Positions 45 to 52,700 of a stretch of DNA of 52,979 nt are shown here, piece by piece. The number at the start of each line of letters is the position of its first letter. Position 1 is the first letter of the stretch. The stretch is from Heterotrichella gracilis (lineage: Eukaryota; Sar; Xanthophyceae; Tribonematales; Xanthonemataceae), in assembly GCA_032358255.1 (NCBI GenBank), contig JAULBX010026041.1, forward strand, positions 1 to 52,979, in the 5' to 3' direction. Both the position numbers and the translations under genes were made by a program. Under the pieces are notes generated by a model. The model saw nothing but the letters and a program-made list of their open reading frames with translations. It was not told where the DNA came from and did not search any database.

Positions 45-844
45 GTACGATGCGGCGTATGCAGCGCCAGAGCTCACTGCCAAGAGCGTGCAGCAGGCAC
101 ACCCTACACACCCTGAGCCATTCAATGGCTTTGCGGCAGACATGTTTGCCTTCGGCAGCTCTATGGAGAGGATGGTGGCTGAGCTGCAGGGCTCGGTGCT
201 GGTCCAGCCAGAGTCTGCCGCTGAACTTGTGATCAGCGCCCTGGTTGGCCCTGAAGGCACACTGACAAGGTGCCAGGACCGGGACTTCACCTTGCGCCCC
301 ACCGCGCAGCAAGCACTGGACAATGTGAGGCTGCAGTATGCATGGGTGGACCAGATCTCGGGGGAGCAGCTGTTTGTGGAGCGCATGGTAGGGATATTTA
401 TTTACTCATTTTATTTATTTATTATTTAGTTGTTTATCTGGAGCGCATGGTAGGGACACGAGGGATCCCTGGGATTGACTGCCTGATCTCCTTTCTATAA
501 AGGAAAATGTTGCTAGGCTTAACAATGAGCCTGTTCACAGGCAGGTTGCATCATGCGTCATTGATGGATCGAGTGAACTCTTTCCCTTTTCTGAGAGGTT
601 GTCTAGACTCCCCAGGAGCTGAGTTGGCTGTTCTCAGACACGATTGCATCCCCATGTCCTCGTACCTGGGATGAGCTCTATGCAGCCTGTCTTTGGACAC
701 AGTTAATCGATAATATCTGTGTTTCATTTGCAGGTGCAGCAGACTGAAGATTGTGTGGGTGGGGCCAGCCTGGATCACGCTGAGGGAGTGGATATGGATT
801 GGAAGGCCGCCTGGCAGGAGGGGGCTACAGAGGGAACAGCCTGA
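45..844 (+). CDS. Protein kinase-like protein, 3' end (two last exons)
   Basis: Partial gene whose 5' part lies outside the window. Exons 45-387 and 734-844 (TGA 842-844) join in phase 0; the first follows a TTTGCAG acceptor. The peptide opens with an APE-like motif (AAPEL) that closes a kinase activation segment. Next comes a subdomain IX-like stretch, FAADMFAFG, with the Asp and Gly expected of the F-helix, and then RDFTLRPTAQQAL, which resembles the subdomain XI arginine region. A short acidic tail ends in EGTA. Together these suggest the C-lobe of a Ser/Thr kinase-like domain. The catalytic loop and DFG are not in view, so activity cannot be judged and a pseudokinase is possible. The long spacing between IX and XI is unusual. 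Kinase-fold identity is inferred from these motifs only; exon structure is more certain than function. Confidence 0.6.
388..733 (+). repeat. Kinase intron with a copy of the exon edge
   Basis: The intron repeats the last bases of the upstream exon together with its donor: the exon end and GTAGGG at 374-395 reappear at about 431-452 (TGGAGCGCATGGTAGGGA). This creates a second, equally good donor. It is the first example of the exon-edge copying seen through the window. Confidence 0.75.
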
Positions 845-1317
845 AGGGGCTGTGGGCTATGGGTGGGACCAGCCGCTGGATGCATGGGGCGTGGGGGATT
901 CAGGGGCGGCAGGGGGAATATGGGGGATTAAGGGGCTACGGGGGATGCAGATGCAGGGCCTGAGGGGCATGGTATGGGTGGGACCAGCCGCTGGATGGCC
1001 CCCGGGCTGCAGGTGGAGCAGATTAAAGAAGTTTCAGGCTTTGGGAGGAGCAGCCTGCTCACATCGAAGGGGTGGGCCAGGAGGGGATGCTGTGCCCCGA
1101 TGGGTGCAGCTGCTGACAATATCCGTTGCTGCGTCACACCTGGTGCAGCAAGTCAGCCTGGCGCGCAATTGCTTGCGGCGTTGTGGATATAGTAAATGCA
1201 TATTTGTACACTAGGGGGGAATAAATTCAAATGAACAAACGGGGCCACGGGGCGCTTGACTTACTGTGCTTGTCTAGCGACGGCGGTTTGCACGCAGGAA
1301 GTGTTCATGACATTTGG

Positions 1318-2526: not shown

Positions 2527-2562
2527 GGTCACAAACGTTATGCTGCCTAAACGTTTGTGACC
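2527..2562. repeat. Perfect 13-bp inverted repeat with 10-nt loop
   Basis: GGTCACAAACGTT at 2527-2539 is exactly reverse-complementary to 2550-2562. The loop is 2540-2549. It lies in AT-richer intergenic DNA about 650 bp upstream of the secreted-protein gene. It could be a cruciform, an RNA hairpin or paired binding sites; nothing around it decides between these. Confidence 0.85.
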
Positions 2563-5100: not shown

Positions 5101-8100
5101 CTACACCATATCCCCTCCCCGCCCGGCCTCCGCGTACGGGGGCTCCTCAAAATCTGCCATCCCCTCGGCATCGTCCCACTGGTCCCCAAAGCCCTCCAGC
5201 TCATCCACCCCCTCCAAATTCGCCGGGAAATTGTACATGCCCCCTGGCACCGCCTGCCCCCCTTGCCTGGCCGCCGCCACTGAGGGTGGTGAGCGCACCG
5301 CCATGCGGATCTGCTCAAGGTACACATCCACTGGGTACAGCGGCTCCGGCTCAGCCAGCGCCTGCACACACACACGTCATAAAAGGAAAAAAATAAATGA
5401 TAAAAACAGATGTTGAACATTTAAATGTCAAATTTTCAAGGTGGTATTGGTTTATATACCGGGGCAATTATTACTGGCAATACAGGTACTAGTTTATGAG
5501 CAACGCAGCCTGTCTTGGGCGCGCTTGTTGACAACAGATTATTTATAATAGACCAATTGCCACCACTCATCCTGCCCAAAACCTTGGCCCAAAACCTTGG
5601 GCAGGATGACTACCATGCAGAGGGTAGGAACGCGGCTGGGATGGAAAGCCACCGCCTTCACCGCCATCGTCATCCCCACCACCATCCTACATCATTCTAC
5701 ACTGTTGTTTCGGCACATTCTCCCAGATAAGCCTGCTTTCCCTCCCCTCCCCACCCCACCGCCACCCACCTGCCGCAGCGCCGCGCCCCCCAGGGTCATG
5801 TCAGGCACGCATTGCACCTCCGTCACCACAATCTCCCCCGTGTCAGCCTGCACTAGCGTATCCACCTGGGCCGCACCCCGCAGCCCCAGCTTGTCGGCCA
5901 CCATCTCCACGCGCTTGCGGGCGGCCTGGGTGGGTGGGTGGGTGGGTGGGGTGAGGAGGGGGGTGGAGGGGTGGTTTGTGGGGAAGGGTAGGGCATGGGT
6001 TCACATGTGTATGGAGGGAGAAGTGTACGAAAGGATAGGTGAGGGGGTGGTTTGTGGGGATGGGGGAGGGTATGGGTTCGAGCTACTGGAGGTGGTGGCA
6101 AAGAGGGTGTATGGTGCAGTGCATATAGGACGGGTAGTCAAAAGTGTGTTGGTGAGCTGGAAACATACGCCAAGAGTACTTAGTGGGGTATGGGGAATGC
6201 CGGGATTTTATACCGTGTGCAAAATGGTCACTCTGATGCAAACATGGCCAAGTGGGCGGCACATGATGTACAATGCACCACATGACCCATTAAAGTATGT
6301 GATGCAATGGCGAATGCAGCAGCCACGCAACCCCCCCCTGGTCCCACCCACATTACAAAGCCATTGCAATTACACGATGCACACATGAATGGTTATATCC
6401 CCAATGTACCACCATCAATCCCCACCTGCAGCGCCTCGTTGGGGATGATGTACTCAGGGGGGGGCGTCATCATGATGGGGAACGCAGGGGTCACCCGGTC
6501 ATCCTCCCCCTCCTCCTCCCCATCCCCTTCCTCCCCTTGCGCCAGATCCATGTGCGGCCCCTGGCCCGGCGCCATGCAAACCCTTAGCGAGGGTGTGAGT
6601 GCGCGCATCTTGCCCACGTCCCCCAGCAGGGTGGTGGTTACCTCCAGCCACCGGCTGCGCCCCACCCACTCGATTTGGAGGGGGTCCTCAGGGGCGTCAG
6701 AGGTGGTGGTGGGGGAGGCGGTGTGCACCACAATCCTGCAGAGGTGGAGTGGGGTGTGGGGTGGGTGGGTGGGTGTGGGGGTCTTGGAGAGTGTTCGGGT
6801 CCTGGTGGAGCGAGGGTGAGGGGACGGGATGGAAAAGGGAGACGGGAGGGACATGCAGTATTAGGGTAAACCCTAAATCCTAAACCCATATATTTGCTCC
6901 AACCCAGCAAAGTGAAGCAGCGACCAGGGCTTGATTGGTGTCCAGGGACTCCTTATACTTAACCCTAGAGGCGCCTCAAATCAGGGGCTGTCGCACAATA
7001 TGGCACTCCCTCGAATTCCGATCAGGGTTTTCCACGCACGTGTCAAACTATATGAAGGGCTCCACAGCAGAGTGCGCAGGCGGCTGCAGCTGCAGCCGCA
7101 GCGGCATGCTGGTGGGTGCGGGTGAGACAGGCTGGCAGCAACAGCATGCATCACCCAGGGTTCTTTCTAGGGTTTACGACTCGGTGCTCCATTACCACAT
7201 GTCAAACAGGAAACAAAAAACCCCTCTAGGGTTTCAGGGTCTACCCACGCACGTGTCAAATTGGATGAACGGCTCCACCGCAAAGTGCGCAGGCGGCCGC
7301 AGCGGCATCAGGATGGTGGGGTGCGGGTGGGACAGGCTGTTGGCGGGCAGGGGCTCCCCCTTGGACAGAGACTGCGCGTACTTTTGCAGGTCCTCCCCTC
7401 CGCCTAATCGTGCCACGCCCACATCGCCCTCCGCCAGCGCGGGCTTGATGCATAGTACAGAGTGGCCGCCTGGGGCAATAGGTGGAGGGTCAGGAGGAGG
7501 CTGGGGAGTGGAGGGGTATTGATGCAGGCAGGAAAATACACATGTGCCCGCTTAGGAAACATGATTTCCCTGGTCCCATGGGTAATCCAAGCTTTACGTT
7601 TGAACCCTGTATCAAGGCCCTTGCATAGGGGGAGCCCAAATTTGGCAGCAAATCACGCGAGCAACGACCAGTGCCCACTCCCTCCCCAGGGGCACAAAAC
7701 CCTTACCTAGGTACGAGCATATCTGGTCGTACAGCGCGTCCGCCGCCTTGCGGTCCGCCCCCGCCGCCGCCAGCACCTCCGCCCCCCCCACCCTGTGCTT
7801 GGGCGCGCTGCTGATGCCACATGGCTCAAGCTCAACCAGGGCCTCGGCGGTGCCTATCCGGTCAGCGCACAGCTGGCAGGTGATGAACCCGGGGCCTGCG
7901 GGGGAAATGATAAAATGATAAAAAAAAATAGTAGCAGCTGGCAGGTATTGATCCCATGGCCTGCAGAGGGGATTATGCCAAATTGATGAAAGGATGATGG
8001 GGTAATATGAGCTGGCAGGTGATGAAACCGGGGCCTGTATGGGATACGATAAATTGGCAAAAATAGGATAAAGAAAGCGTATCAGATGGCGGGTACTGAA

Positions 8101-11100
8101 CCCGGGCCCTGCAGAGAAATTATAGCAGAAGAAAAGTAACTATAATGGACACGAAGCCTGCGGAGGCAATCACAACAGAATAGAAGAAATAAAGAGATGG
8201 ATGAAAATAAGCTGGCAGGTAATGAACCCGGTGGCTGCAGAGATCATGATAAAAAGATAACCAGGATTAGAACAGATGACATAGTTATAGTCACAGAAGG
8301 ATAACAGCTGGCCGCCCCAAAACCCCAGACTTAATTTCCCTCCCAAACCCCCACACTCACCTGTAAACGACACCTCAAGGTCCTCCAGGAATGCCTGGAG
8401 CATGCCCGCTTGCTGCGATGCCGGTGGCAACGCAATGAACACCACCGCACCTGCTGCCTTGGCCTCCATGGCAAACTGCGTGAGGTCCATATACCTGGGG
8501 GTGGAGAGGGAGGGTGAGTTACAAGGAGCAGGGGAGATGCAATTGGGAGCAGAATGCTCTTCTGGTTGATAGTAGAGCTGGGGGTTCCAGGGTATGTGGT
8601 TGCCGAGCAAGTTGTGTGGGGTGCGCGCCTGTGTTACAAACGTGGCAAGATTGGAGAGTGCTCGAGGAAACCACCTGAAACCCACCTTGGGCTGTTGGAC
8701 GAAGGTGCTCGTCGTGAAACCCCCACCCCACCAACCCCCTTCATACATATAAACAAAACTGTATATTTATCACATTTAATAGGAGTGGATATTTCCTATT
8801 TATTTGCAAAACAACCCACCTTGGCGGCGGCGCCACCGTGGTGTAGTCCCCCCCCCAGCTGCTCCCCACCCCCCCCACCCCCGCGTGGTGCAGCTCTGCT
8901 TGAGCCATGCCCTGCACCTCCAGCGTACCCATCACCAGTGGGGACTGCACCCGCTCTAGCTGGTTGGCGCTCTCAAGGACCGACTCGCACGCGGCATGGG
9001 TTTCGTCAACTGCAAAGGGCGTGGGGAGTGGAGGGGTTCACGAGTCTAGGGATGTGGGGTAGGGTTTGGGGTTTCAAATCATGCCCTTTACAATGGGACA
9101 TGCGCTCCGCACAATAACAAACGCATCCTCTCGATGCCGCTTGCCTCGCATACCCCACACCCCCGCCCCTCACCTGTCCCTGATAGCCAGCGCACACAAC
9201 AGCACCCTCATCTTCTGGGCTTCATCAAATCCCCACATTGGGCTTAAACCCCCTCCCCTCCCCCACCCCGCCACCCACCTGTCTCCCTGATGGCCAGACC
9301 ATGCGGCAGCGCCCACACACCCCGCGCCTCAATGGGCACATCCGGCGGCAGCGGGTTGCGGATGGCACCCACCCGGATCTCCCGGGGCAGGTCTGTTTCT
9401 TCCAACCCAAGCTTGAGGTGGTCGTTGCGCTTGTGCAGCAGGGCTTGGCGCCGGGAGCGCTCCCGCAGGCCTGTGGGGGAGGGTGGGTGGGTGGAGGGTG
9501 GGTGAGGGGGATGGGGGGTGGTGGGAATGCCGCAGCAGCAGTGGTGGGTGTGTGGTCTGTCTGTGTGGACAATTGGATAAAACGTGCTACAAGAAGGTAA
9601 AGGCAGAGTCCCCCAAAAATGCCAAGAAAAACGTCCCTACAACAGCACACCCCAACCTCCAACCCCCACTCACCCCCGGTCAGCGGCGCCAACAGGAATG
9701 GCTCCGCCTCCACCCCCCGAAGCCTGCTCAGCGCCAGCCACACCTCCCTGCCAGATGCCAGGCTGGCGTCCCGCTGCCATGTGTCGCCGCCACACAGCAC
9801 CCATACACGCTGGGGGGGGCCGTCGGCAGCCATGGGCAGGGGGGTGTCCGATACAGGCTGCACGGGGAGGGCGGATGGATGGTGTGGGTGGGTGTATAAT
9901 GCGAGCGAGGGTGGGTATTATGCACAGCATTGAAGTATGTACACAGAGATGTAATGAACAAAACAAAAATGTTAAATCAACACATAGCCTCAGGAAACTT
10001 ACCTAAACCACTAACTATCTCCTGCTAAATATGCAGGACAATTTTGTCATACACATCCACCAAGTTAAACATACCGATCCGATGGCAAAGGTATGCAAAA
10101 GCAGCTCCCCAGAAAACCCTCGCACATGGTTCTGAATGCCATCGTCTCCATTTCATTTCCAACTTCCAAACCCCCTCCCTCCACCCCCAACCCTCCCCAC
10201 ACCATACCCACCTCCTCCGGATACAGCATCCCCGCAGTGGGCGTGGCCATTGATTGGAACACATCCTCAGCCTCCACCATCTCGGGGATTACCAAATCCC
10301 CATACTCGGTAACGTCAAAATCGTCCTCCCAGCCCTGGGTCCCCGGGGGCATGGCGGGGGCGTCGTCCAGGTAGGTGTCAAATTCCTGGGTGCCCTCCTG
10401 CAACAGGAGTTGGTGCAAAAATGAGACACATTTGCAACAGATTTATTAAGGGGGGTCGTCATCCAGGTAGGTGTCAAACTCCTGGGTGTCCTCCTGCGAA
10501 CAGTGGGGGTGCAAAATTTGAAACATTTGCTTCATATTTAAGAAGAAACGTTGTCATCCAGGTCGGTGTTACCCGCCTGGTATGGGGAAAAAGTGACATT
10601 TGGGACATATTTGGAAGGGGACCAGGCGATTACCACTCCATCCAGTTAGTATCGTATAAAAAGCACATGAAACATGATGATACTGATTGATACAGTTAAT
10701 ATAAGTTTTTATTAAGATAAAATATTAACTGTGACTCTATCCCTTCCCCTCACCCTGGCCTCGTCAAACAGCCCCTTCTTCCCCTCAGGCTCCACATCAT
10801 CCTCCCCCCCTGGGTGCAGGATGGGCATCAACGCCGTTGAGGTGAAGTCGGAGGTGGGGAGGGGGGGGAGGGGGGCGCGGCCGCCACGCACAAGGGCACC
10901 TGCAGGGGTGGGGTGAGTGGGTAAACAGTGGGAGGGCAAAGCTTCTGGGGGGCCAAAGGTGGGTGGCTATGAGGGTGGGTGGGTGGTTGAAACTACGAAT
11001 TGCGGATCAATGATTTCAATTCCTACAGCTTCCAAAGTATAGAAGAGGTGGTCATGTACGGCTGCTCAAACTCTCACTCGCCCACACAGAGAAAGGAAAG

Positions 11101-14100
11101 CGGGTGACGCGCAAAGGCGAAGTTAGGGGCCACTTGCTCGCACCAAGGGCTACGCAACGCGCCGGAACACCTAATCAAGCAGAGGCCTTAGCCACCAGCA
11201 TGCACGGTAGTGTGTAACACTCACCACAATGCCACACACAGAACACCTAAACCCTCGCGCCAAACCCTGCGCCCCACCACTCACCCGACACCACATGCCT
11301 CATGATGGCCCCATGCGCGAGGCCCACCTCCTCTACCTGCCAATCAAGTTGACAACTGGCCCCAAACCCTAGCCAACAAAACCCTAGCCCCGCCACTCAC
11401 ATGGCGCATGATGGCCCCATTTGTGAGTCCCACCTCCCCTGCCTGCCACCCATACTAATTTAAAACCCTAAACCCAAACTCTACTTGCCTAACCCTAGCC
11501 CCGCCACTCACCCGACACCACATGGCGCATGATGGCCCCATGCGTGAGTCCCACCTCCCCTGCCTGCTGGAACATCACATCACATGGAGCCAGCGAGGGA
11601 AGGGGGTACACACAGTTGAACAAAATGGTGCCGGACTTGTTCCTGCGGGCGTTTAGGGAGGATGGGGGGGTGTAAGGCGATGGGGGGTAGAAGGCATGTA
11701 GAGAGGTGGATATCAGGCATGTCAGTGTGGCATGAAGGAAGGGTATTGGGTGCTGTGTTGCAATACCGCGGAACAAGGAAAGAGAAACCGAATGAATACG
11801 CATAATTTTTTAACAGCAAACACATTGACAGGTTAGAAGAACCCCTTAATTATGTTGAAGAGTATCAACATTTGCAGTATAAACATGTTGCAATACATTT
11901 CATTCGTATTTCTTCTTGTTTTTCTTGGCAACTACCATTACAACCACGTACTGGCAAATCTCCTCGGGACTGAGGTCATCCAGGTTCTCAAACACAAATT
12001 CCTCATCCATGGAGGACGTGGCAGCAGACGACTCCCCCTCCCCCTCCTCCTCCCCTTCTTCCCCTTGATCACCCTCAGCGGCACCACTGGTACCAGCTTC
12101 CTCCCCCTCCTCGACCTCCCCTTGCTCCTCCCCCTCTTCCTGGTGCTCCCCTTGGGTGGCTGGGCCTGGTAGGAACGGTGGGAGGGTGTTGGGGTGGGGA
12201 GGGTGTTGGGGTCACCGGGTTTAGGGATGATTGGGAAACAGCTTCTCTTGTGGATCAATAAGTGTGTCGCAATCCTTTTCCCTTACTAAAACAAAGGCTG
12301 AGCTGCCCAAATGCAGTGTCAACTCTGCCTTGTCCTCGTTTTCCTCCCCTTGCGCCTCCCTATGCAGCGACGCACTTTTGCGCAAGCCTGGTGCTATAGA
12401 TCTTAAGCGCAGGTTGCAAATATAACACGCAGAAATACAATACAATACAATACGATATGATCCCTAATATACAATAGGTTCTTCCAATCAGCCCACCAAG
12501 GTGCTGTAGTAACCACATTTTGTGCTGTGAACACATTTTTTCCCCCTCACCTTCCTCCCCTTGCGCCTCCTTTTGCAGCGCCGACTGCAGCGCGCTGGTG
12601 CGAAGGGAGGTGCGGTAGTTCTCAAGCGCGGGCAGGGGCTGGGCTTCCTCCCCGACCACCTCGCCCATGCCCTCCCCTTGACCTCCCTCCACCTCCTCCT
12701 CGTAATCAGGCAGCAGCACAAAGCCGTCGAAGCGGGCGATGTCGCGCAGCCCCAAATCCTGGAAATTTGGGGGAAATTGGAGTTGATACGGGCTTGGGAT
12801 ATACCTGTTCTCTATTAATCACATGGCGTCATGGACTGGGTTTGGGTGTGGTGACCCCCAAAAGTGCATGTGCTATTACCCGAAAGGCCTGCCTATATAT
12901 ATACATTCTGTCCAACTTCAGGGAAAAGCACATGTTGTAGATTCGACAACACACGCTTGTGCCCATAATTGGTACTAACGTGATGGTGAAGTGAAGTACT
13001 TGTTGGGATTTTATAATGCGGTGGGTTGTTCTCCCCTCCTCCTCCGCGGCCAACCCACCCTCCCCAACCCCCACCCGCTCACCTTGAAGAGCTTGGTTGC
13101 CCCATGGCGGATGCCCTGCGCAAGCTCCTTAGGCAGGTGCGGGGGTGTGTGGTGCACCAGCAGCGCTTGCGGGCTGTAGATGCGGCCCTGGCTAAGGGTA
13201 ACTGGCCCGTCGTGCTCTGCATGCGCCTGCTCCCGCATGCCCTCCACAACCATCTGAACGCCCTCGTCTGCCCACCCCTGCAATGACATTCACATGGTTG
13301 ATGCGACCAATATGAAGGACACCGCTCACAGTGTGTAAATAAAACCTGTTGAAGCAATGCTTCAAGCTGCCCCCCCCAGCGATTAAGCAGCTTATGGCCC
13401 AATGGCGCCTGGACCTTCAGGAGGAACCTGCTATTTTGCTGGGGCAGCTCTTGCTACACTACACCCATGGTCGCACAGAAAGCTTCCTAACAGCCTACAA
13501 CCCTGGGAACGTGGATAGCTCTCAATGTCAAATTGCACATGTGCAGTGACAAACCCCCACCCAACCCACCTCCACGCGCGCCAGCCAGGCCTCCAGATCC
13601 AGCTGCGCATCAATCACATCGTGCTCGTAGTCTGTCACCTCAAGCTCGGTGGGGGGCAGGGCGATGGGCCCCTTGGGTGTGTCGATCACTGTGCAGCTGA
13701 AGTCCACGCAGGTGGACAGCAGGGGTTGGATGATGACAGAGTCGCAGGTGTCCTGAAGGGTGGAAGAGGATTTATGCAGGGGTTAAGTAGGATTTTGTGT
13801 AGGGTTTTGGGGGTGTCTATCAAAACGCAGGTGTTCAGGTGCGGTAGAATAAAACGTAGCCTTGCAGGTGTTTCCGGAAGAAGCAGGAGGGTTTTGGATA
13901 CGGTACCGGCAAAAACAATTCAGGAAGAGTAGTGGGAAGGATTTGCTGGGTACTGGCATGCTAATGCCGACAAGGGTGGCGCCATCCCAGCTGCCCCGCC
14001 CACTCATTAGGGTGTTAGGGTCCCTGGCGGGGGTTCAAATTTCATGCTTTTCTTGGGGTTTAAGGTTTCCGAATCCCGGTCCCCGCACCTCCTGCAGGAG

Positions 14101-17100
14101 CATTGCCCTCCCCGCGTTGAATGCCGCGTCCACCCCCCTTGCCACCACCACCACCCCCTCGCTGCCCCCCACCGCAGGCCGCACGCTCATGCGCTCCCAA
14201 TCCTCGTCTAGATCGTGCTCCTCAAGCCAATCCCTGGGGGAAAATACAGGGGTTTAGGGTCTGGAGGAGATGGAGGTGTGCGCGGAGGCAGGAAACACAA
14301 ATTCAAAGAATGGATGAGAAATGCCTCCTTGCGTTGCACTGAGTTCTTGAGACTAGGGACACGTTGGTGCCAACCACACGTTGATGCCAATCATGCGACA
14401 TGGTACACACACCACCCCTCACCCCCCGAATCCCACCTGAATCTGTCCATCCATCCCTGCGGATGCTCCAACATCCTATCAAAACCCTTGGGTGCAAACC
14501 CAAATCCTAAGGGTGCAAGCCCACCCCCACCCCCCACTGCCACCCACCTGAACCTGTCCATCCACTCCTGCGGATGCTCCAACACCCTATCAAAACCCTA
14601 GGTGTGCACAACCCCCCCACCCACCTGAACCTGTCCATCCACTCCTGCGGCTGCTCCATTGCCTCCCTGGTGAGGCTGGCCAGGGGGAGGGTGGGGTATC
14701 CCCGCGCACGCAGCTCGTCAAGCGCGCTGCAAGGGGGGAAAGGGGAGGGTGGGTTTGAGGGTACGAAAACACACATTCAAGGTCATTTCCTATCTGACGG
14801 GGGATGCGTGGCCGCGTGTGGCAGGCCATGGGCAGAGTCATGTGGCATCTCATGTGGCAACATGTGGTGGTGGCAAGTGGCGCATGACGTGGCGCCATGG
14901 GACGTGCCAACGGGTGCTATATGGTCTGTCATTCAGTGCCATGCGGCGCCAAGTGATGCTGTGCACACGCAATTCCCTCCTTTAGCACTCCCCCACACGA
15001 TGCATCATCATTGCTCGCACCATACCTCACCCCAGCCACAATCAAACCCAGCTCTCCTGTCCCCACAACTGCCCTCACCCACTACCCTCCAAAACCCCAC
15101 CCGGCCTTATCCCTCACCCCCCTCCCGCTTCCAAAACCCTTACCTGACCCTATCCCCCAGCAGCTGCACCACCTGGGCGGAGGGGCCTAAATGCAACACC
15201 CCCGCATCCGCCAGGCATTGCTGCGCATCCGCGCCGGCGGGGCCCAGGGCGCAATACGCCACGTCAGCGCTGTCACGCAGTGCCTGGGCTAGGTCCTGTA
15301 AGCGGGTTGAAGAGAGGGTCAACATGGTGGTGGATAAGGTGGGTGATGTTAGTCAGAATCCGTGCGTTTGCAAGGGGATGGTAAGGACTACGCCAGCACC
15401 ACATCCAGCTCCCAACCTAGGGGTTTTGTCTAGGGTTCTGCCTAGGGTTTTGTACCTGGGGATCTGCTTAGGGTTTCATCTAGGGTTTTGCTTAGGGTTT
15501 CTCACCTGCAGGGTCTCTTACACCTGTCGCTCCGGCTGCTGCGCCAGCACAACATCCAGCTTCGCAGGGTTCTGTCTGGGGTTTCATCTAGGGTTTTGCT
15601 TAGGGTTTCTCACCTGCAGGGTCTCGTACACCTGCCGCTCCGGCTGCTGCGCCAGCACAACATCCAGCCCCCTAGCGTTCTGCCTAGGGTTTCATCTAGA
15701 CTTTTATCTAGGTTCAGTTGGAATATTGGTAAGGGATTTTTGCCCTCACCTGTAGGGTCTCGTACACCTGCCGCTCCGGCTGCTGCGCCAGCACCACATC
15801 CAGCTCCTCAGCACTCAGGCTCATTGCTTCAGGGCTAGTGATGACATGCGACCTGCCCTGCGCATCAAGATAGTAGGCCTGTACCGAGATGCCGGAGGTG
15901 GCCGCGGCGGCGCCTGCGGTGGGGGGTGGGGAGGGGTGTTGGTGGGTGGGTGGGGCACAGGTGGTGGTGATGGGATGGGGTGGTTGCTACACTGACTGCC
16001 ACACCCGCAGACATGTCGCTGAAAACCGGGACAATTGGATCACCCATGTTTTGTTCAATATGCATTCCATATAGTAAATTACATAATAGTTAGTGCTTGA
16101 CACTTCAAAACACTTATGCTACTACTAAAAAATATTCTACCTTTGTTTATTTGTACTTTGTAGTACCATATTGTACGTGTCGTGGCTGCAATACTACATT
16201 TTTAACGGTGACTTCAAATTGCTCCCTTTCCCCTACCCGTGACTTCCTCCGCATCCATCCACCACGCAGTTTGCAGCTGGCCAATGAGTGAGCGGGCAGT
16301 GGCCAGAGACGCGTCCCGCTCGTGTGTGGGGCCGCCCCCGCCGCACACCACGGCTAGGGTAATGCTAGGGTCTGGCTCCGACAGGCGCCAGGGGGTGTGG
16401 GAGGAGACCTGCTGCGCGTAGGAGGAAACCAGCCCGTCCTGCAAGGGGGAAGGGGTTGGGTCAGGCGGTGCAGGATGTCAGGGGAAGTCAAATGTTTGTT
16501 CGGCCCAGCTCCGTTTCAGCTCACGAGATTATTCCATGCTGACGAATGCTAAGAGACGGCCATGCCTTGGTTGCTGCCCAAGGAAACCAACCGACTCACC
16601 AAGCCACCAACCAACCGACCACCCATATGTGTCTGGTTTCCCAGGAGACAAATGGTTGGTTGGTTGGTTAAATAGTTTGGTTGGATGGTTGGGATCCTTG
16701 GGCAGCCACCAAAGTATGACGGTTATATAACATTCCTCAGCATACAACAACCTCGTGGAACCAAACTTGTTCCACGAAATGGCTTCCCAGGGAACAAAAC
16801 CACGAGCAACACCTTAAAGGCCCCGCCCCATTCCGCCCCATACCTCCCCCCCCTCCTGCCCCGGCCCCCCATGTGCCAGGCTTGCCCGCATCTCCCCCTC
16901 CAGCACCCCCCTCAGCCGCGCCTGCAGCTCCGCCTTGGAGCCAGAGTAGGACAGGCCGCGCGCCTGCAGCTCGGCTTGGAGCTCCCGCATGATCATGCTG
17001 TCAACCTGGGCAGGGAGGTGGAGTTTAGAGTTTGCTTTTAGGGTTCAGCTCCCGCATGATCATGCTGTCAACCTCGGTGGGGTGGACGAGGGTATAGGGT

Positions 17101-20100
17101 TTACAACTTAGGGTTTAGCTCCCGCATGATCATGCTGTCCACCTGGGGAGGGGTTAGGGTTCGCGGGTTAGAGTTATGCTTGCCCATCATCATGCTGTCA
17201 AGGTTAAGGAGGGGTGGGTGGGGGCGGGGGAGGAGGGGGTTGAGGGTCTGTGGTTTAGGGTTTGCAGGTTAGGGTTCACGGTTTAGCTCACGAATGATCA
17301 TGCTGTCGAATTGGGGAGGGAGGTGGAGTTCAGTGTCTGCTTTTAGGGTTCAGCTCATGCATGATCATGCTGTCAACCTGGGTGGGATGGTAGGGAGGGT
17401 TCAGGGTTTGCGGGTTAGGGTATACCACTTAGGGATAACGGTTTCTCGCGCGCATCATCATGCTGTCGACGTGGGGTGTGTGGTCCGGGGGAGGTGGAGG
17501 CCGATCATCTTCTGCCATATCAGAACATGGCAGCCATTTTCCGCTCTTCTCACCACCACCCAACCAACGACACCCCCCACCACCATCCACCACCACCATC
17601 CCTCCCACTCACAATGTTAGCCGCCACCCCCTCCACATCCACACCCCCCAGCGCCTCCTTGTCTAGCATCTCCTCCAGCTTCGACACCAGCTCTGTGCGC
17701 ATGACGCCACTGGGGTCCAGGCCGCGCTCAATCCAGGCGTCCTTCAGTTCAGACACCTGCGGGGGTGGGTTAGGGTTTAGGGTTCAGAATCGAGGGTTCA
17801 AACACCAGGGATTGGAGCCACGTCGACGTGGCCTCGACGGCAGTTTTAGCCCACTTCCAAGGGGTGGTTTAGGGTTTAGGATTTAGGGTTTAGGGTGCAA
17901 CTGGCCTGTACACCCAACGCCTCTCGCAGGTGTGGGGTCGCGTGTGAATTGTGTGGGGTGGGGCGCAGGACGCATGCACACCCTGCACCTTAGCGGTGTG
18001 CACATGATGGTGGTGACTCCATCCCCCGATACCCACCCAACATTGCACAGCCCAACCACCCCCCACACACGTACACCCGCATGGACCTCCACCCCACCCA
18101 CCACCCACCACCCCCACCCCCTCCGCACCCACCCGCATGGCACTGGGCACCATCATCCCCCCTGCCTCCCCTGGCGCCTGCGCCCACCCCCCCGCCTCAG
18201 CCTCCAGCGCCCCCCGCAGCAGCTCAGACAGCTGGGCGCGGGGCAGCCCAGCACCCATCATGCCGCGCTTGCTCAGCTCCTACAGACACGGGAGGTAGGG
18301 TTTTATACAGATAGGGGTTTAAGCAGGGTTTTATAAGGGTTTTGGGATGGGGTATTTGAGGGTGCGCTGGGCAGCATCATGTTGGCGCTTGCTCAGCTCC
18401 TACACGCGCAGGAGGTAGGTTTTTGAATAGGGTTTTTGAGTCAGGTTGTTAGGGTATTTTTTGAAATAGGTGCCGTCTAGTACGCGCACCAGGTCCTGCC
18501 TGCTGAGCTGCTAGAGGCGGGAGAGCGGGGTTGTGAACAGGTTATTGAGGGGAAATTTACTTGGCGGAGTGCACATGAAAGGGCATGCCTTCCAATGTGT
18601 ATACCAGGCCAGCAGGCATGCTGGGAATGCCACACCCCACTCCGAAAGCCTGGCTCACTTTCTTCCAGTGTGGCAGAAATCGACAAACGGATTGACAAAG
18701 CAACCATGCCAACAAATTGAAACTAAGCCCTAAACCGTGATGTGATGTGCACCGTGGCAATATGGTCTGTCAGGCTCGCATTGCACCCCACCACCTCATC
18801 ACCAACCCTCGATAAGGTTTTCTTCTAGGGTTTCCTCCTACCTTTCCCTCACCTGGCGATCTGTCGCACCAACAGGCTTGCAATGCACCCCACTAGACAC
18901 CCTCCTATGAATTTCCCCTCGGGGTGTTATTTCCTCACCTGGCGCAGCTGCGGCACCGTCAGGCTTGAGATGTAGCCCGTAACTTCATCCAGCTCATTCA
19001 CACCCCCTGGCTCCACCCCGTGCTTCTCGTTGTAGTCCAGCGCCATCTGGATCAGCTCGGCCTTGCTGGTCCCTCCCGGGGATATGCCCCTGGGAGGTGG
19101 GGGTGGGGGCAATGCAAACTTGAAATTATGATACATTGCAAAAGTATACAAACCAATAAGAACAAATATTGAAAGGAGCACATTCCAATGCATGGAGCGT
19201 GCAGGCCTTACTGGTCCCTCCCGGGAATATGCCCCTGGATGGTGGAGCCAGGGGGTGGATGGATTTGTGGATGGGTGGGTAAGTGGGGGATGGTGGGGGG
19301 CCGATGCACCCCAATGCATGGAGCGGGCAGGCAAGTGCAGACGTAGCATGCCACAAGGGGTTGGAACAGTGGCATTGTGCAGGGGTGGGTGATAGGAGGA
19401 AGGCAACAAAAACATGAATGCCAACTCCATGCCAACACCTCCGCCATACACACATCCCTCAACCCAAACCCTTTCCCTCAGCCAGGGGCTTGAATATGTA
19501 GCCCTCCAATTTGAACTCTAACCCCTAAAACCCCAATTGAATTCCCTAAACCCTACACCCTGCAGCGCACCTCTCCCTGAGCCAGGGCTTGAGCTTCTTG
19601 AGGGTCCAGTTGCGGGGGTCCTCCATGCGCGCTGGGCTGCCTGCACCCGCCCTTGCAGCCTGCTCGTCCTGCGCAGCCTGCGCCAACAGCATGCAGGTTA
19701 GAATCCCTAACCCAGAGCGGCAAGCGGGTAATTACTACCCTGAACAGGATTGTAAACCCTAATTTAAACCCCCAAAACCTGAATCCGCCCTTGCAGCCTG
19801 CTCATCCTGCGCGGCCTGCGCCAACAGCACGCTGGGCATAAACCCTAAACCGAAACCCTATACCCCAACCCGCCCTTTTAGCCTGCTCGTCCTGCATGGC
19901 CTGTCCCAACAGCAATCTGGTTGTAAAGTGGCGTATGGTACTAGCTGATTACCTAGCCATGCATTTTACAACCAACTTGATTCGCAGTACCATACTTCAC
20001 GTATGCGACCAGCCCACCTGCAGTAGTCGCGCCACCAGCGCCTGCTTCCTCCCCGTGCGCGGCACCGAGTGCACTTTGCACAGGTGCTGGAGCTGCACCA

Positions 20101-22151: not shown

Positions 22152-22522
22152 TAGTTAGTTAGTTACATGCATTCCAGCAATACAGTCAGATTAGCAGTCA
22201 GTCTTGCACATGCGGCGCCACGCAGCTCTTTTCTGGCACTATTTGAACCATCTATTGATCCCACGCGACTTGAGGTCCTGCTGGAGTAGGTCAGCCCACG
22301 TGGCCCTTGGCTTACCTACCCCCTTTGCCCCCTCTACCCTACCAAACACCATACATTTAGGAACCCTATCGTCTGATAAACGTCCTAAATGTCCCAACCA
22401 GCGTAGCCTAATGTCCCTGAGTTTGTCACTTATGCTTTGTAGCCCACACTTGCTAAGGAGAACGGAATTAGGGGTGTGCACCAACCTAGAAACCCCGCAC
22501 AGAGCTCTTAAACAATTATTAT
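22152..22522 (-). mobile_element. Non-LTR retrotransposon (LINE) 3' end, 5'-truncated
   Basis: On the minus strand this encodes the last part of a LINE ORF2-like protein: a (I/R)LRWLGHLGRLSDDR segment, then GVGKPRATWADLLQQDL, ending SRGINRWFK at a TAG. This R(L)RWLGH...GRP..W pattern is typical of LINE C-termini. The copy ends with TTAG/TAAC microsatellite units (22152-22164), a common LINE 3' tail. It is about 85-90% like the copy at 32759-33142. It begins about 37 bp past the CTNNBL1 stop and so probably lies in or next to that gene's 3' UTR. It is truncated and non-autonomous. Confidence 0.9.
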
Positions 22523-22558
22523 CCCGGGGGCTGCAGTACCATGCAGTAACACCAACTA

Positions 22559-26904: not shown

Positions 26905-26938
<34 letters not shown>

Positions 26939-31201: not shown

Positions 31202-34200
31202 ATGCCCGGCCGACGAGCGCAGCCCCGGCAGGGCCAGCAGCCACCGCCGCCCAGCACCAGCAGCGGCACCCTCCCCGACGGGATGGTGGAGCTGCACCGC
31301 AGCCGCTTCGTGGAGTGGCGGCCGTCGGCGGTGGTGGCGATGAGCCCCACTACCGACGGTACACTCCTGGCGGTGGCGCGCGACAGTGGGGACATAGAGC
31401 TGTGGGATACCGACTCGTGGCACCTGATGCGGGTATGGCGTGGGAAGGGGGGATGTGCACGTGATTCTGTAAGCCTGGGCCGGTAGAGGGTGCATTATTG
31501 GTTGCCATGCATATGCATTGCATATGCATGCGTATAGCGCCACGCTTACCTGCTGCCCAGCGCGGTGGTATTTTGTGGTATTGTATGCAGTTGAATCCCC
31601 ACCCCCCAGTTGGCACGACTGGGGCCCAGACCTTACCACAAACGCCGCACCCTCACCCTTCAATTCTCCGACCCCGCCGCAAAACCCCCCCCTCCCCCGC
31701 CCCCACTCACTCCCCCCAACCCCGCAGTCCATCCCCGGCCGCTCCGACGCCTCCCCCACCTCCCTGGCGTGGGTGTACGACCCAGCAGCCGCCACCTGGC
31801 GCCTGTTCTCAGCAGGGCTGGATGGGGTGCTGGTGGAGTGGGGGGTGGCCACCCTCCAGCCATGCGCCACCACAGACTCGCTGGGGGGGGCGGTGTGGGC
31901 GCTGGCGCCGCAGCCACAGGCGCAGCCAGGTGGGTGGTGGCGGTTGGGTGTTGTGGCGGTGCGGGAATATGCGGGGCAGGATGGCGATCGCATGCCGTCA
32001 TGGCCATGCGCAATGGTAGACGCCGCAGCATAGCACGTAGTCAAGCGTGAAGCGCACCAGTCCTGCTCACAAGGAATATCAACCTGCACACCTTGCATCA
32101 TGGTGATGGCATTTATGGAAAAAGAGACAGGGTGGACCCCCACACATACACACATGGGTTTTATCACCCCATTTCGTATAGGGTTTGGGGTTTAGGTTCC
32201 TCACACAGGGGAATTGCACCACCTCAATCTTGACACCATGCATGTTCCAACCCTATCTTTCCACCCCACCCTGCAGATGGCGACCACCAGATCGCAGTGG
32301 CCTGCGACGATGGCGCCCTGCGCCTCTTCACAGCATCCCCCGGCACCCCTGGCCTGGCGTACCACCGCTCCTTCCCCGCAGCCGCCCCCCGCGTGCTGTG
32401 CTGCGCATGGTACCCCTCGGGGTGTGCGCTTGTGTCTGGCGGCGCTGACGGCATGATGCATGTGTGGAGCACCGACACCATGGGGGAGGTGCTGCGGATA
32501 AACGCAGGTGGGGGTGGGAAGGGGTGGGGGTGGGGGGCATGTCAGGGGGGTTTGACGGCCGCCATGGGGTGGGGGAGGTGGTGCATGTCGAAGGAGCTGG
32601 GGTGGGGGTGGGGGGACAAACCCATTGTTTTCCAAGGGTTATAACGCTATTATATGACTATGTATTATCTTAAAACCCATTGCTTTCCCCACACACTTAT
32701 ATGGGGCTGACAGCTGGGCTATTAGGCAGCCTCAACTTGCTAGATTAGAGGTTTTTCAAAATAATTGTTTAAAGGCTCTGTGTGGGGTTTCAAGGCTGGT
32801 ACACACCCCTATCTCCGTTCTCCTTAGCAAGTGTGGGCAACAAAGCTTAAGTGACAAACTCAGGGACATTAGGCTAAGCTGGTTGGGACATTTAGGACGT
32901 TTATCAGACGATCGGCTTCATAAGTGTATGGTGTTTGGTAGGGTAGAGGGGGCAAAGGGGGTAGGTAAGCCTAGGGCCACGTGGGCTGACCTACTCCAGC
33001 AGGACCTCAAGTCGCGTGGGATCAATAGATGGTTCAAACAGTGCCAGGAAAGAGCTGCGTGGCGCCGCATGTGCAAGACTGACTGCTAATCTGGCTGTTT
33101 TGCTGGAATGCATGTAACTAACTAACTAACTAACTAACTAACACACTGCACAACATTTCGTCCCCGACCGATTCTGTCCTCATCTTCAGTGTCAACACGG
33201 CCTCCCTTTTTCCTCAGCACACCCTATTCATCCCACTTCCACGTCCCAAGCTGTGCACCTGTCCCTGGCTGTGCTCCCAGGGTGAAATATCTCCCACACT
33301 ACGCGATACAAATTTTCCTCGATATTTTAAAATCCCTTTCTGTCCCCATTCCAGGTCCCGAGCTGTGCACCTGGTCCCTGGCTGTGCTCCCAGACGGCAC
33401 CATCGCCAGCGGCCATGCAGCGGGATGGGTCCAAATGTGGGACGGCGTAATGGGCACCCAAATCGCATCATTCCAGCGGCACGCGGCTGACGTGCTGGCC
33501 CTAGCGGCGTCCCCTGGTGGGGAGGCTGTGTTTGCATCTGGTGTGGATGCGCAGGTGGCTGTGTTTGGGGCGGTGGAGGATGCAGAGACAGGTGGGTGTG
33601 GGGTGGGGTGGGGTGGGGTGGGAGATATATGTTCTTTTGTGCATTGTGGTTATTGCAGGCAGGGGTGATCCATACCCCACTCCATTGATGTGCGCATTGG
33701 AGTGAGTTGATTCACGGGGCTTGAAGAGCCATATGCCTGCGATTAATACCCACCTTTTGGCCAACCCGCTTGATACCCCCATGTTGCACGACGTGCGCCT
33801 CACCCCCCCCCACCCAGCACCACTCCCTCACAACCCCTTCTCCACCCCATTCCTCCACCCCATGTCTTCTTCACACTGTGCACCCCCATTACAGGCCTAC
33901 CCACCTGGACGTACCTCGACTCCAAGCGGCCCCACACACACGACGTGCGTGCGCTGGCCCTGGTGCCCAGTGCCGACGGTGAGGCTGTGCTTGTGACTGG
34001 TGGTGACGACACGCAGCTTGTGGCATACCGGGTGAAGCACTTCAGCAAGGTAGGGCAGGACACATGGAAGCAAGGGAGTGGGGATGGGTGCAGACTCTGC
34101 AGAGAGTACATGCGGATGGGACGTGGACATTTAATGGATGGGGATGAATTATGGAAAACCGAGGATTGATTGCGGGGAGGATTCCGACCGTTTGCACAAG

Positions 34201-49700: not shown

Positions 49701-52700
49701 TTTTACAATCTGTGGAATGAGGCATTATGTGAGCCGGTTTAGTATATGTATGGGTGCAATATGAACCACCTGGTTCCAGCACGTAAGCCCCCCCTTGGCA
49801 CATGTTCCCCTGCGCAAACCTCCTGCACCTCTCTCCCCCAGGGGAGGCGGGTGTGCCCTTCTTCTACTGCTCCGGCTCTGAGTTTGAGGAGATGTTTGTG
49901 GGGGTGGGGGCGCGGCGCGTGCGCGACCTGTTTGCCGCCGCCAAGAAGATCTCGCCGTGCATCATCTTCATTGACGAAATCGACGCCATCGGCGGGTCGC
50001 GCAACCCCAAGGATCAGCAGGTGAGGAAATGGTTTTTTTGCCAACCTTTTGTGGTACCTCCTGGAATTGTCTATTTTTAAAATGATATATTGTACAAATG
50101 TACATCAACCTGTTCGGAGTCCACTTCCATCTTGACTAGTTGTTGTAATTTGGTGTACAGCCGTGTTGTATGTACCCAACATTTTTCAAGGTACAAATGT
50201 ATTGTTATTATTGTACATTTGTGGACAAAGGCCTTTTTTTCGTGCTTCCCAGTACATGAAGATGACTCTCAACCAGCTGCTGGTGGAGCTTGACGGGTTC
50301 AAGCCCAGCGAGGGGGTCATAGTCATTGCGGCAACAAACTTTCCAGAGTCACTGGATCGGGCGCTGGTGCGGCCTGGCAGGTGGGTTGCCGGGCGTGTAG
50401 AGGGGGGCGGTGGTGTCGGGAAGGGGTCATGTGCGACTAGGGTAGTGTGTGCCAAGTGGCAGAGATCGTGGCTGGCGAAAGTGGGGGCGGGAATTGTCAC
50501 GGGCTTGCCCTTTTTCTGCACTGCTGCTGGGATGGCGCCATGATAGCGATAGTGGCAGTCGTGATGGCAAAGGTTTTGGGCTAGCAATTGCGGCTACTGT
50601 TTGGCAATCACGTCGGTAACACTATTGACAGCCTTGCAAGTGACAACACCTCACCCCTACAACCTGTGCCTTTCCTGCATGACCACCCACTCTTACATGC
50701 GCCGTGACCACCTCCCATCCACCCCACCCTCCACCAGGTTTGACCGCCACGTGGTTGTGCCCAACCCCGATGTTGAGGGGCGGCGCCAGATCCTGGAGGT
50801 GCACTTCCAGAGCGTGCCAAAGGCAACGGACGTCAACCTCAATGTGCGTACCATAGTCATGGGGTCACCCTGACCTCTTACCCTAAACCCTTCACAGCGT
50901 GCCAAAGGCAACGGACGTCAACCTCAATGTGCGCACCATACCCGTGGGGGAAACCCTAACCCTGAACCCTAATTTACACAGCTGTGCATGGGGAGCCCTT
51001 CGTGTTTCTCCTGGCGATGTTGTGTGTTGCACCCGCTGGGGACGTGCGTCAGTGGTTGGCATGTGACACACTGCCAACTACATTGTTGCATCCCCCTGGG
51101 TACGCCGCCTTGCCCCCTCCCCTGTAATTTACCTGTAATACCTCTATTAGGCTGGTATCCTTTGTGCTCTCTCCTTTTTTGTATCTTTTTGTGCGTGACC
51201 CACGCTGCATGGCCCCACCCCAATCGCACCGTGGCCAATCATTAAGACCTTCCACCTGCCCCCACCAAACAAACCTGTCATGTGATCCCCCACCCTCATG
51301 TCACATGAGTCATGTGATCCCCCCCTCCCCTGCAGATCATCGCCCGCTCCACCCCTGGCTTCAGCGGTGCCGACCTGGCCAACCTGGTCAATGTGGCGGC
51401 GCTCAAGGCAGCGAGGGATGGGCTGGCAGCGGTGGACATGCAGGTGGGTGGGGTGGGGTGTGGGGATTGGGAGGCATGCGGTTGTGGGCGCGTGCGGGTG
51501 CATGGCACAGGCAGTTTGTTAAATTCATGTTGGTGCGCGTGGGGTGGAGTGGGGAGGATGGGTGCATGCAGGCGGGTACGCTGCGCAATGCGTGGTGGCG
51601 GCGATCACAGCAATGGCAATCATCATGCCTGCAGTTTGACCGCATCGTCTTTTTCATCAAGTTTGGAAAATAATTCCAAAAAAGGAAATTAAATCAAAAG
51701 AACCCTGAATCGTGACCTGAACCCTGCGCAGGCGCTTGAGTACGCCAAGGACCGCATCATCATGGGTGCGGAGCGCAAGAGCGCGGTGTTGACGGATGCC
51801 AACCGGCGCCTGACTGCCTACCACGAGGGGGGGCATGCGCTGGTGGCGCTGCACACGGAGGGGGCGCACCCGGTGCACAAGGCAACCATCGTGCCCAGAG
51901 GTGGGTTGGTTGGTGTTAAGAGGGGTGTGCAGAGGCAGGAAGGGAGGGAGTGGGGTGTGAGGAGGTGTGTGTGTGTGGGCGGTGGGCGTGTGCAGGGAGT
52001 GGGGTGTGCGGGTGCAGGTGCAGGGGTGGAGCGTGCGGCCCAGGTGTCATCCCTTTGGATGAACTGTGTGCACTTCGATTGGGTTAATTTGATTTTCTAC
52101 CAAGGCAATTCATGTTTCTTTTTTCAATTTTCTCTTAATTCGTTTATTCCCGGGCATTCATTCACCTCAACTCAATCCAATCCGATCCCCACAGGCATGG
52201 CCCTGGGCATGGTGACTCAGCTGCCTGACGAGGACGAGACCAGCGTGAGCCAGCGGCAGCTGCTGGCAAAGCTGGACGTGTGCATGGGGGGCCGCGTGGC
52301 CGAGGAGCTCATTTTCGGGCCCAAGGACATCACCACCGGGGCCTCGTCTGACCTGGAGCAGGCCACGCGCCTGGCTCGGGCCATGGTCACGCGCTACGGC
52401 ATGTCGGAGGTGGTGGGAAAGGTGAGGAGCGGTGGTGGTGGTGGTGGTGGTGTGGGGGGGGGGGGTGAATCGTGCTTGCTAGATGTATGAGTCGAATGTG
52501 ATGGGCAAAAAAGGTGAGGGGTATGGCTTGGTGATGTATCCTTCTTTCGGCAGAGCTTTGTCACTCGCTCCTATCTCTGCACCAGGGCTCCAGACACCAA
52601 CGGCGCTTTGTACCACCCGCCCACCCATCATCAGGTGGCGCCCAACAATAACCACAGTTCTGCCCCGTCCAACCTGCAACGCGCCTCCCCCTCCCCCGCA

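Follow-up and report, generated by a model that had tools for sequence, protein, structure and literature searches.

Direct copies of exon edges, often separated by telomere-like spacers, in introns of Heterotrichella gracilis

Introduction

Fill-in of 3' overhangs at staggered breaks by CST-guided Pol alpha-primase (CST-Pol alpha) is described as giving rise to small tandem duplications (PMC8355091). In that account the telomere end fill-in machinery is used and the stretch between two nicks is duplicated, giving short units in direct orientation like those reported here; our units, unlike theirs, are concentrated at exon edges and in most cases have between them a spacer, which is often telomere-like. 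Telomeric repeats are also reported to have been inserted at double-strand breaks during mammalian evolution, with a flanking duplication in 6/130 rodent and 4/25 primate cases in the table of that paper (PMC2246262). Here too there are short internal telomeric stretches, sometimes with a flanking duplication, and such internal repeats occur above chance (8.6/kb in introns as compared with 1.4/kb for the control). The passages of PMC2246262 consulted mention no link to splice sites, whereas here the words are found mainly in introns, close to the splice sites.

For the telo boxes of land plants, telomerase action at free 3' ends has been proposed by the authors who described them (PMC3022908). 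According to the figures given there, AAACCCTA is enriched in 5' UTRs of Arabidopsis and rice, and in introns (150.7 and 72 per Mb) it is no more frequent than in the genome on average. Short telomere motifs within genes are common to both cases, but the enrichment of AAACCCTA in the present genome is in introns (1264 per Mb, against 227 in intergenic DNA). Direct repeats lying mostly at most 10 bases from intron borders have been attributed to break repair (PMC11782384). As described, these are 4–30 bases long and pair both ends of one intron, while ours tend to be longer and link a single edge to a copy inside the intron. Introners are recurrent insertions, reported mainly from fast-evolving lineages such as green algae (PMC9860276). 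Recurrent insertion tied to introns is a shared property, but no shared insert was found in the one case probed and there was almost no new-intron signature.

Results

Abundance and orientation of exon-edge copies

A 52,979-nt stretch of H. gracilis DNA (the window) was analysed together with 250 kb from the same assembly (GCA_032358255.1), 303 kb in all, with ab initio exon and intron models from our own gene finder. A first-pass annotation of the window had proposed that its introns are filled with tandem copies of neighbouring exon edges. After removal of pairs with <25 unmasked bases (direct pairs falling from 143 to 136 and inverted pairs from 3 to 1), 136 direct local repeat pairs and 1 inverted pair were left over 303 kb, of which the window contributed 42 and 0. 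No repeat pair was found in a 100 kb shuffled-sequence control.

For the edge test, 673 of 790 edges were taken, leaving out introns <100 bases, short exons and queries >30% masked. A copy inside the adjacent intron was present for 63/673 edges, as compared with 2/470 exon interiors, 22/1058 pieces of intron DNA and 14/1683 of intergenic DNA, and 0/335 when the intron of another gene was searched. At a stricter score the counts were 39/673 for edges, 4/1058 for intron DNA (Fisher p ∼1e-12) and 6/1683 for intergenic DNA (p ∼3e-16), an excess of edges over intron DNA of ∼15-fold. Copies of exon edges were therefore far more common than those of exon interiors or intron DNA, the comparison on which the first-pass annotation had staked its claim (proposed for the whole genome, made here over 303 kb), and this held after correction for decay.

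That correction bears on an explanation in which small tandem duplication is random and occurs everywhere, selection purges the exonic events, and edge copies are those tolerated, which stand out most since their exonic counterpart is conserved. Duplications were also found at 9 loci inside introns and at 5 intergenic loci, and some arrays are plain tandem, such as C2:135568-135770 (d 101). In simulation, slower decay kept exon-derived pairs detectable 1.7–1.9 times longer, accounting for ∼1.8-fold of the excess. The excess over intron DNA left after correction was, however, ∼8-fold at the stricter score and 2.5-fold at the looser one. At ≥90% identity there were 15 edge loci (one at a predicted gene end), 3 intron loci, 0 intergenic and 3 exon–exon, despite introns and intergenic DNA making up 216 of the 303 kb. 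Before loci were counted, 20 short predicted exons within repeat arrays and predicted exons <15 bases had been removed. Selection also offers no evident reason for the short intron parts or the telomere-like spacers described below. We consider random duplication unlikely, though it deserves some weight.

Exon-edge copying is thus confirmed as real and extends beyond the window. The 67 edges with copies comprised 37 donors and 30 acceptors, and both strands were affected, as the first-pass annotation had stated. Affected introns showed no 5' bias when the 303 kb was scored by quarter of gene position (11/90, 15/87, 14/102 and 21/98). Introns bearing copies were longer than others, which is expected once copies have been added.

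Affected edges in the window

Nineteen exon edges with copies were counted automatically in the window, and 21 when the 24270 acceptor, whose copy the gene finder had labelled an exon, and the 387/388 donor were included; more than twenty affected exons had been claimed. The edges are as follows, percentages being the identity between unit and copy.

378..456, plus strand: donor edge, exon ending at 387; the 17 bases from 378 recur exactly within the intron at 440-456
839..997, plus strand: acceptor-edge unit 958-997, copy 839-882, 89%; predicted small exon, weak gene model
7022..7339, minus strand: donor-edge unit 7234-7339 (edge 7252/7253), copy 7022-7134
7871..8260, minus strand: acceptor edge of exon 7707-7895, array of degenerate copies reaching 8260
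10356..10580, minus strand: acceptor edge at 10397 and copies, period ∼95
11245..11567, minus strand: donor-edge unit 11472-11567 (edge 11511/11512), copies 11245-11340 and ∼11389-11446; AAACCCTA-type words in spacers
12341..12583, minus strand: donor-edge unit 12552-12583, copy 12341-12372, 91%
14412..14658, minus strand: donor-edge unit 14611-14658, copies 14421-14470 and ∼14521-14581
15388..15811, minus strand: donor-edge unit 15745-15811, copies near 15607-15671, 15501-15567 and 15388-15412; telomere-like spacers, some co-duplicated with the unit
16980..17484, minus strand: acceptor-edge unit 16980-17005, several copies, telomere-like spacers
18256..18424, minus strand: acceptor-edge unit 18256-18304, copy 18375-18424, 84%
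19059..19245, minus strand: acceptor-edge unit 19059-19100, copy 19204-19245, 90%
19640..19922, minus strand: acceptor-edge unit 19640-19713, copies 19778-19851 and 19868-19922; telomere-like spacer
24208..24464, minus strand: CTNNBL1 acceptor-edge unit 24208-24273, copy 24399-24464, 97%
24718..24835, minus strand: youngest case, CTNNBL1 donor unit 24803-24835, telomere-like filler 24751-24802, copy 24718-24750, 100%
25458..25636, minus strand: CTNNBL1 acceptor unit 25458-25492, copy 25602-25636, 97%
26000..26135, minus strand: CTNNBL1 donor unit 26091-26135, copy 26000-26044, 85%
26447..26703, minus strand: CTNNBL1 donor unit 26662-26703, copy 26447-26487, 81%
26998..27275, minus strand: CTNNBL1 donor unit 27097-27275, copy 26998-27178, 74%
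33231..33393, plus strand: WD40 gene, acceptor unit 33343-33393, copy 33231-33280, 90%
50808..50972, plus strand: FtsH-like gene, donor unit 50808-50886, copy 50893-50972, 84%; ACCCTAAACCCT word at the junction

All nine cases singled out earlier as clear were recovered, eight in the first self-alignment and that at 24400-24464 as the pair 24208-24273 / 24399-24464. One member of this pair is a copy, since both peptides match the same stretch of solved CTNNBL1. The assignment to five genes is that of the first-pass annotation. The gene finder merged 5104-29526, which contains 16 of the 19 automatically counted edges, into one model from which CTNNBL1, an identity backed by homology, is separable by homology only. 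A Pfam search of gene pieces found SAP, AAA plus M41 (FtsH-like) and WD40 domains; the WD40 matches by themselves do not prove that the gene is UTP4. The labels ‘kinase’ and ‘DDL’ received no backing from Pfam, with 0 families each in the submitted pieces.

Structure of unit, spacer and copy

Unit structure was scored for units that had at least 10 exonic bases and spanned a single edge. Among young pairs, those of ≥90% identity, the exon part exceeded the intron part in 14/14, and the intron-side end of the unit lay ≤13 nt from the splice site in 13/14 (p 5e-5). The same was true of 20/32 units in the wider set (p 0.0015), older pairs and array pairs having looser ends. This supports the proposal that copying is seeded at splice junctions. 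A further, unseen sample consisted of 20 donor-plus-TTTAGGG places, two of them on overlapping stretches; it omits C2:17321, which is within the 303 kb, C3:160205, which is close to a contig end, and repeat listings of one anchor. A downstream edge copy was present at 8/20 places and absent at 12/20, with control scores ≤20 for the reverse complement and ≤27 across places. When 40 intron bases were added, the intron-side end fell at 7, 8, 13, 21 and, weakly, 37 in five places, the remaining three being dominated by telomere words. The clustering of intron-side ends is less tight in this sample than in the 303 kb.

The visible exon part of units with at least 10 exonic bases ran from 16 to 97 bases, in place of the copies of 25–100 bases first described. 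A spacer of at least 20 bases at 52/67 edges means that most copies are not head-to-tail, although some arrays are adjacent. Decay with distance is present but weak (Spearman −0.29, p 0.017, n 67). GT was kept in 36/42 copy alignments and AG in 34/40, possibly an artefact of alignment ends.

In the youngest case, telomere-like words lie between the copies and none lies past the second copy. Its filler is already degenerate, unlike the clean telomere repeats at contig starts. A single 76-base probe with this filler returned only a self-match in the genome, in a search that ignores very common words. The arrangement of unit, insert and unit resembles a target-site duplication, as would be left by a mobile element, Introner-related or bearing telomeric repeats, inserting at exon ends. 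The one probe gave no second match, however, the exon parts of 16–97 bases contrast with duplications of 3–9 bases given for Introners (PMC9860276), and a new-intron signature is almost missing. Such an element is very unlikely to be responsible.

Other candidates were rejected. Introner insertion was dismissed on the lack of near-identical inserts for the youngest filler (the same probe) and of a new-intron signature, and copying of filler from another locus on the lack of any match to it. A second haplotype or paralogue was sought with a 15 kb probe (14000-29000), which matched a dispersed repeat and, weakly, two stretches of 60 bases, and revealed no second gene copy. The idea that introns arise when an AGGT exon segment is duplicated in tandem was dropped, the donor region being repeated at its own acceptor in 1–2 of 375 introns above random: at score 10 there were 6 against ∼2.7 expected at random (rate 0.0073), at score 12, 2 against ∼0.6, and at score 14, 1 against ∼0. 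Slippage alone leaves the spacers unexplained.

Telomere-like words between copies and near splice sites

Perfect TTTAGGGTTTAGGG occurs 5629 times in the genome, a few of these at contig ends, as compared with 5 occurrences of the reversed control. Over the 303 kb, telomere 7-mers reached 8.6 per kb in introns, 1.9 in intergenic DNA and 0.9 in exons (reversed control 1.4, 0.8 and 0.8), with peaks 15–30 nt past donors and 15–60 nt ahead of acceptors. Among 395 introns, 81 donor sides and 63 acceptor sides have such words next to the splice site. Both strands are used at donors; at acceptors the word is on the TTTAGGG strand in 5 of the 43 introns having one. The TAGGGTT words noted earlier as often spacing the copies are part of this genome-wide interstitial telomeric signal. 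A telomere word is present in 24/52 spacers and 28/52 have none; random intron pieces gave a mean of 8.0 and a maximum of 15 (500 draws).

The median intron part over all ages was 19 bases with a telomeric spacer and 10 without (n 28), so that tight intron-side ends are not a hallmark of telomeric filler. The G-rich strand of the filler was directed away from the exon in 19/25 (p 0.015), as if primed by the intron-side 3' end. At acceptors, a strand bias could reflect selection against extra AG. Exact donor-plus-telomere patterns were found 2 and 4 times in the 303 kb, where ∼1.5 were expected each, very small numbers. Genome-wide, CCCTAAA precedes TGCAGG 1976 times and TTTAGGG precedes it 1260 times, the latter count being high although the local acceptor profile shows almost none. 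TGCAGG also occurs within copied donor edges, and these counts consequently lend no support to a strand rule at acceptors. A telomerase RNA-binding domain is encoded in the genome.

Two further explanations turn on these words. In the first, replication or transcription stalls at G-rich telomere-like tracts next to splice sites and the template is switched back into the exon, so that the words predate the duplications. At least 77 splice sides with telomere words have no detected copy (81 donor and 63 acceptor sides against 67 edges), and arrays with the words inside the unit exist (15459-15811 and C2:135568), both in favour of this account. Yet the youngest case, with its telomere-like stretch between the copies only, would require an extra deletion, and pairs whose spacers lack the words also have short intron parts. 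Stalling therefore seems improbable. In the second, selection for an aid to splicing (branch-point-like CTAAA, G runs) keeps both words and edge copies, and their position reflects that selection. The scarcity of the TTTAGGG strand at acceptors and the retention of GT and AG would fit, but the retention may be an alignment-end effect, donors carry both strands, and the 5629 perfect TTTAGGGTTTAGGG are hardly a product of word-level selection. We give this account very little credence.

Discussion

The first-pass interpretation is partly supported. Among the mechanisms it listed (replication slippage, break repair, template switching), break repair fits best, because simple slippage fails on non-homologous, often telomere-like spacers and because hardly any copy is inverted (1 pair). 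The best reading, to which we give an even chance of being right, is repeated repair of staggered breaks at exon ends, in which the edge is duplicated by fill-in and telomerase-like filler comes to lie between the copies. Double-strand breaks would recur at exon ends, one cut falling a few bases into the intron and the other ∼20–90 bases into the exon. Fill-in of the overhangs would duplicate the segment between the cuts, that is, the exon edge plus splice site, and filler, often a telomere-like repeat, would be added ahead of end joining. The product would be an edge unit, filler and an edge unit; the working edge would stay with the exon while the extra unit would remain in the intron and decay. 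We infer a break as the cause, and telomerase together with fill-in of the CST-Pol alpha type as the probable agents. Exon ends might be targeted because RNA:DNA hybrids over exons terminate at splice sites, which is one idea.

Repeated rounds, together with ordinary duplication of unit with filler, would give longer introns. Existing introns would be lengthened, with almost no sign of new ones; the proposed growth of introns fits, and their creation by this route is unsupported.

These copies touch on how intron length changes and on why mutation would depend on splice sites, and the genome offers many candidate events that share a simple pattern of unit, filler and unit. Should telomerase be the source of the filler, chromosome-end enzymes would be tied to everyday gene evolution. 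More tentatively, and with rather less confidence than not, we suggest a lineage-specific, splice-site-anchored form of mutation in which exon-end breaks made during transcription are healed by telomere-building enzymes and introns grow from their edges as exon-edge copies and telomeric filler pile up. On this view, telomerase-type repair, linked either to splicing or to RNA:DNA hybrids over exons, would largely determine how long the introns of this genome are.

Gene models and source of the DNA

The window corresponds to bases 1-52979 of contig C353 in an assembly of 68.5 Mb and 903 contigs. Near-full-coverage named matches to the CTNNBL1 of the window came from green algae (Myrmecia bisecta, 56%; Tetraselmis, 54%; Elliptochloris, 53%; Coccomyxa, 52%; best 120 of 596), and these matches place the source of the DNA among the green algae, perhaps the trebouxiophytes. 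Genes were modelled from genomic sequence only, with a simple purpose-written gene finder, in a 303 kb sample consisting of the window and 250 kb from the same assembly. This yielded 59 genes, 494 exons and 435 introns; after removal of false mini-exons inside repeats, 395 introns remained, with a median length of 294 bases. The splice signals learned were sharp (donor mAG/GTRNG, acceptor TGCAG/G), and the CTNNBL1 prediction matched the solved protein 4mfu (E 8.7e-105). One CTNNBL1 peptide was predicted twice, both versions matching the same stretch of the 4mfu chain. Because the version at 24126-24270 runs on into the conserved end, the predicted exon 24378-24461 is taken to be an intronic copy.

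Exon edges are copied into the adjacent intron

Self-alignment of the window gave 31 near direct repeats. Across the 303 kb, filtering at one uniform threshold left 136 direct local pairs and 1 inverted pair, as compared with none in 100 kb of shuffled sequence. The pairs fell into 94 places, 69 of which joined an exon or exon edge to an intron; the remainder were intron-intron (9), exon-exon (7), intergenic (5) and edge-edge (4). Copies were found for 67 splice edges (37 donor, 30 acceptor), affecting 61 of 377 introns, these lying in 19 of 41 genes of at least four exons, all counted in one genome and a single assembly. No edge copies were found at a proteasomal AAA ATPase gene (38216-39648), predicted with a single intron among intron-rich neighbours. 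Downstream of the window's first gene, a 160-base direct repeat (1351-1691; 85%, distance 179) directly follows a telomere-like word, and events of this type may also take place in 3' untranslated DNA.

When 40 exonic bases at each edge were aligned to the adjacent intron, 63 of 673 edges matched at a score of at least 30. The corresponding figures were 2/470 for exon interiors, 2/556 for edges against the intron on the exon's far side, 0/673 for the reverse complement, 0/335 for an intron of another gene, 22/1058 for intron DNA against its own intron and 14/1683 for intergenic DNA. At the stricter score of 44, the counts were 39/673 for edges, 4/1058 for intron DNA and 6/1683 for intergenic DNA. 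Edge pairs stay detectable for longer because their exon copy is conserved; in a simulation with equal event rates this visibility advantage was 1.72-1.86 fold, and correcting for it left an edge excess over intron DNA of about 8-fold (score 44) or 2.5-fold (score 30). The first-pass annotation had described introns as filled with tandem copies of neighbouring exon edges; in the 303 kb, such copies were indeed commoner than those of exon interiors and intron DNA.

Anatomy of the duplications

Young pairs (at least 90% identity) have the layout unit - spacer - unit, the unit being the copied edge that spans the splice site. The youngest is:

24803-24835 and 24718-24750, 33 identical bases (28 exonic, 5 intronic), with 52 bases of telomere-like DNA between them

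No telomere-like DNA lay within the 60 bases shown beyond the second copy. Copy-to-copy distances centred on about 110 bases (middle half 93-138; identity at least 85%). The exon part exceeded the intron part in 14/14, 22/25 and 32/39 pairs at identities of at least 90%, 85% and 80%, respectively. The unit's intron-side end lay within 13 nt of the splice site in 13/14 pairs at 90% or more (p 5e-5). Among the 32 spacer-bearing pairs at 80% or more, 20 had their end within this distance (11.7 expected, p 0.0015). Random duplication everywhere, followed by selection, might also produce edge copies, but should not shorten the intronic part of the units. The median intron part, over all ages, was 19 bases with telomeric spacers and 10 with other spacers.

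Telomere words in introns and spacers

The sequence TTTAGGGTTTAGGG occurs 5629 times genome-wide, and its reversed form 5 times. In the 303 kb, telomere 7-mers (both strands) reached 8.6/kb in introns, 1.9 in intergenic DNA and 0.9 in exons, as compared with 1.4, 0.8 and 0.8 for reversed controls. Beyond donors, the peak was at 15-30 nt and involved both strands; ahead of acceptors, it was at 15-60 nt and involved the CCCTAAA strand. Among 242 introns of at least 260 bases, a telomere word was present in 55 at +5 to +60, in 20 in a central window and in 43 at -60 to -5. Such a word occurred in 24 of 52 spacers (random intron pieces, mean 8.0), and in 19 of 25 cases the G-rich strand of the filler was directed away from the exon. 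The other 28 of 52 spacers, of at least 20 bases in the 303 kb, had none, and some were AT-rich (e.g. contig C2, 29939).

Genome-wide, the donor motif CAGGTGNG has TTTAGGG within the next 30 bases at 1270 sites and CCCTAAA at 893; for TTTAGGG after the mock motif CAGGAGNG, the count is 171. Under independence, the counts expected from motif rates in the 303 kb are 334, 334 and 114, but the resulting 3.8-, 2.7- and 1.5-fold excesses are inflated because telomere repeats are scarcer in the sample than genome-wide (perfect 14-mers per 303 kb: 10 as compared with about 25). The fair figure is that for donor versus mock motif on the same strand, 2.5-fold. Exact motif-plus-telomere patterns within the 303 kb were very few (donor 2 and 4, mock 2 and 0).

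Clean (CCCTAAA)n arrays occupy the first bases of contigs C70, C140, C526, C609, C717, C770 and C824, which are likely to be chromosome ends. Further ends may be marked by the long runs of TTTAGGG that lie at high coordinates on C173, C460, C607, C660 and C872. The window has two copies of a dispersed repeat, about 376 bases long (22145-22520 and 32760-33135), with a TTAG microsatellite at one of its ends; at least 39 candidates scored, with copies at 87-96% on many contigs among the matches listed. Its reverse strand presumably resembles a LINE 3' end. The telo boxes of land plants show no enrichment in introns (PMC3022908).

The structure in unseen DNA

Twenty places with the donor motif followed by TTTAGGG, 601 bases each, were taken in list order outside the 303 kb. 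An exon-edge copy lay downstream at a score of at least 30 in 8 of them; scores did not exceed 20 for reverse complements or 27 against other places. When 40 intron bases were included, the intron-side ends at five of these eight places were 7, 8, 13, 21 and, weakly, 37; at the remaining three the alignment became dominated by telomere words. The unit-copy structure holds elsewhere in the genome, the tight intron-side end less firmly. Listings of the assembly also contain donor-plus-telomere words at a period of about 100-112 bases, like the arrays of the window:

Contig C23: 72994, 73106, 73218
Contig C12: 125981, 126091
Contig C16: 146481, 146591
Contig C5: 126667, 126769

A possible origin and its effect on introns

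A staggered break, filled in and joined, would leave a directly oriented duplicate of the flank plus added filler. Direct orientation, duplicated flank and filler are the residue expected, and fit such repair. Telomerase might extend the intron-side 3' end, consistent with the strand bias of the filler; contig C626 of the assembly codes for a telomerase RNA-binding domain. We infer that exon ends could be hit because an RNA:DNA hybrid over the exon, ending at the splice sites, would direct the first cut to the outermost intron bases and the second to the exon itself.

Earlier reports describe small tandem duplications that arise in mammalian cells when 3' overhangs are filled in by CST-guided Pol alpha (PMC8355091), telomeric repeats put in at breaks during mammalian evolution, at times with flanking duplication (PMC2246262), and break repair templated by transcript RNA in human cells (PMC12065846), where, in contrast, the scar reported is the loss of whole introns. 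Exon-edge copies with telomeric filler were not found among the matches listed from titles and abstract openings of the open-licence PMC literature. Natural insertions in rice reportedly form tandem duplications (Vaughn and Bennetzen), and introns are said to have been made by AGGT duplication (Hellsten and others).

Donor-acceptor repeats of the kind left by new introns were almost absent. Copies were present in 7% of introns below 150 bases, 4% at 150-250, 11% at 250-350 and 38-44% of longer ones, long introns also offering more room. The process lengthens pre-existing introns.
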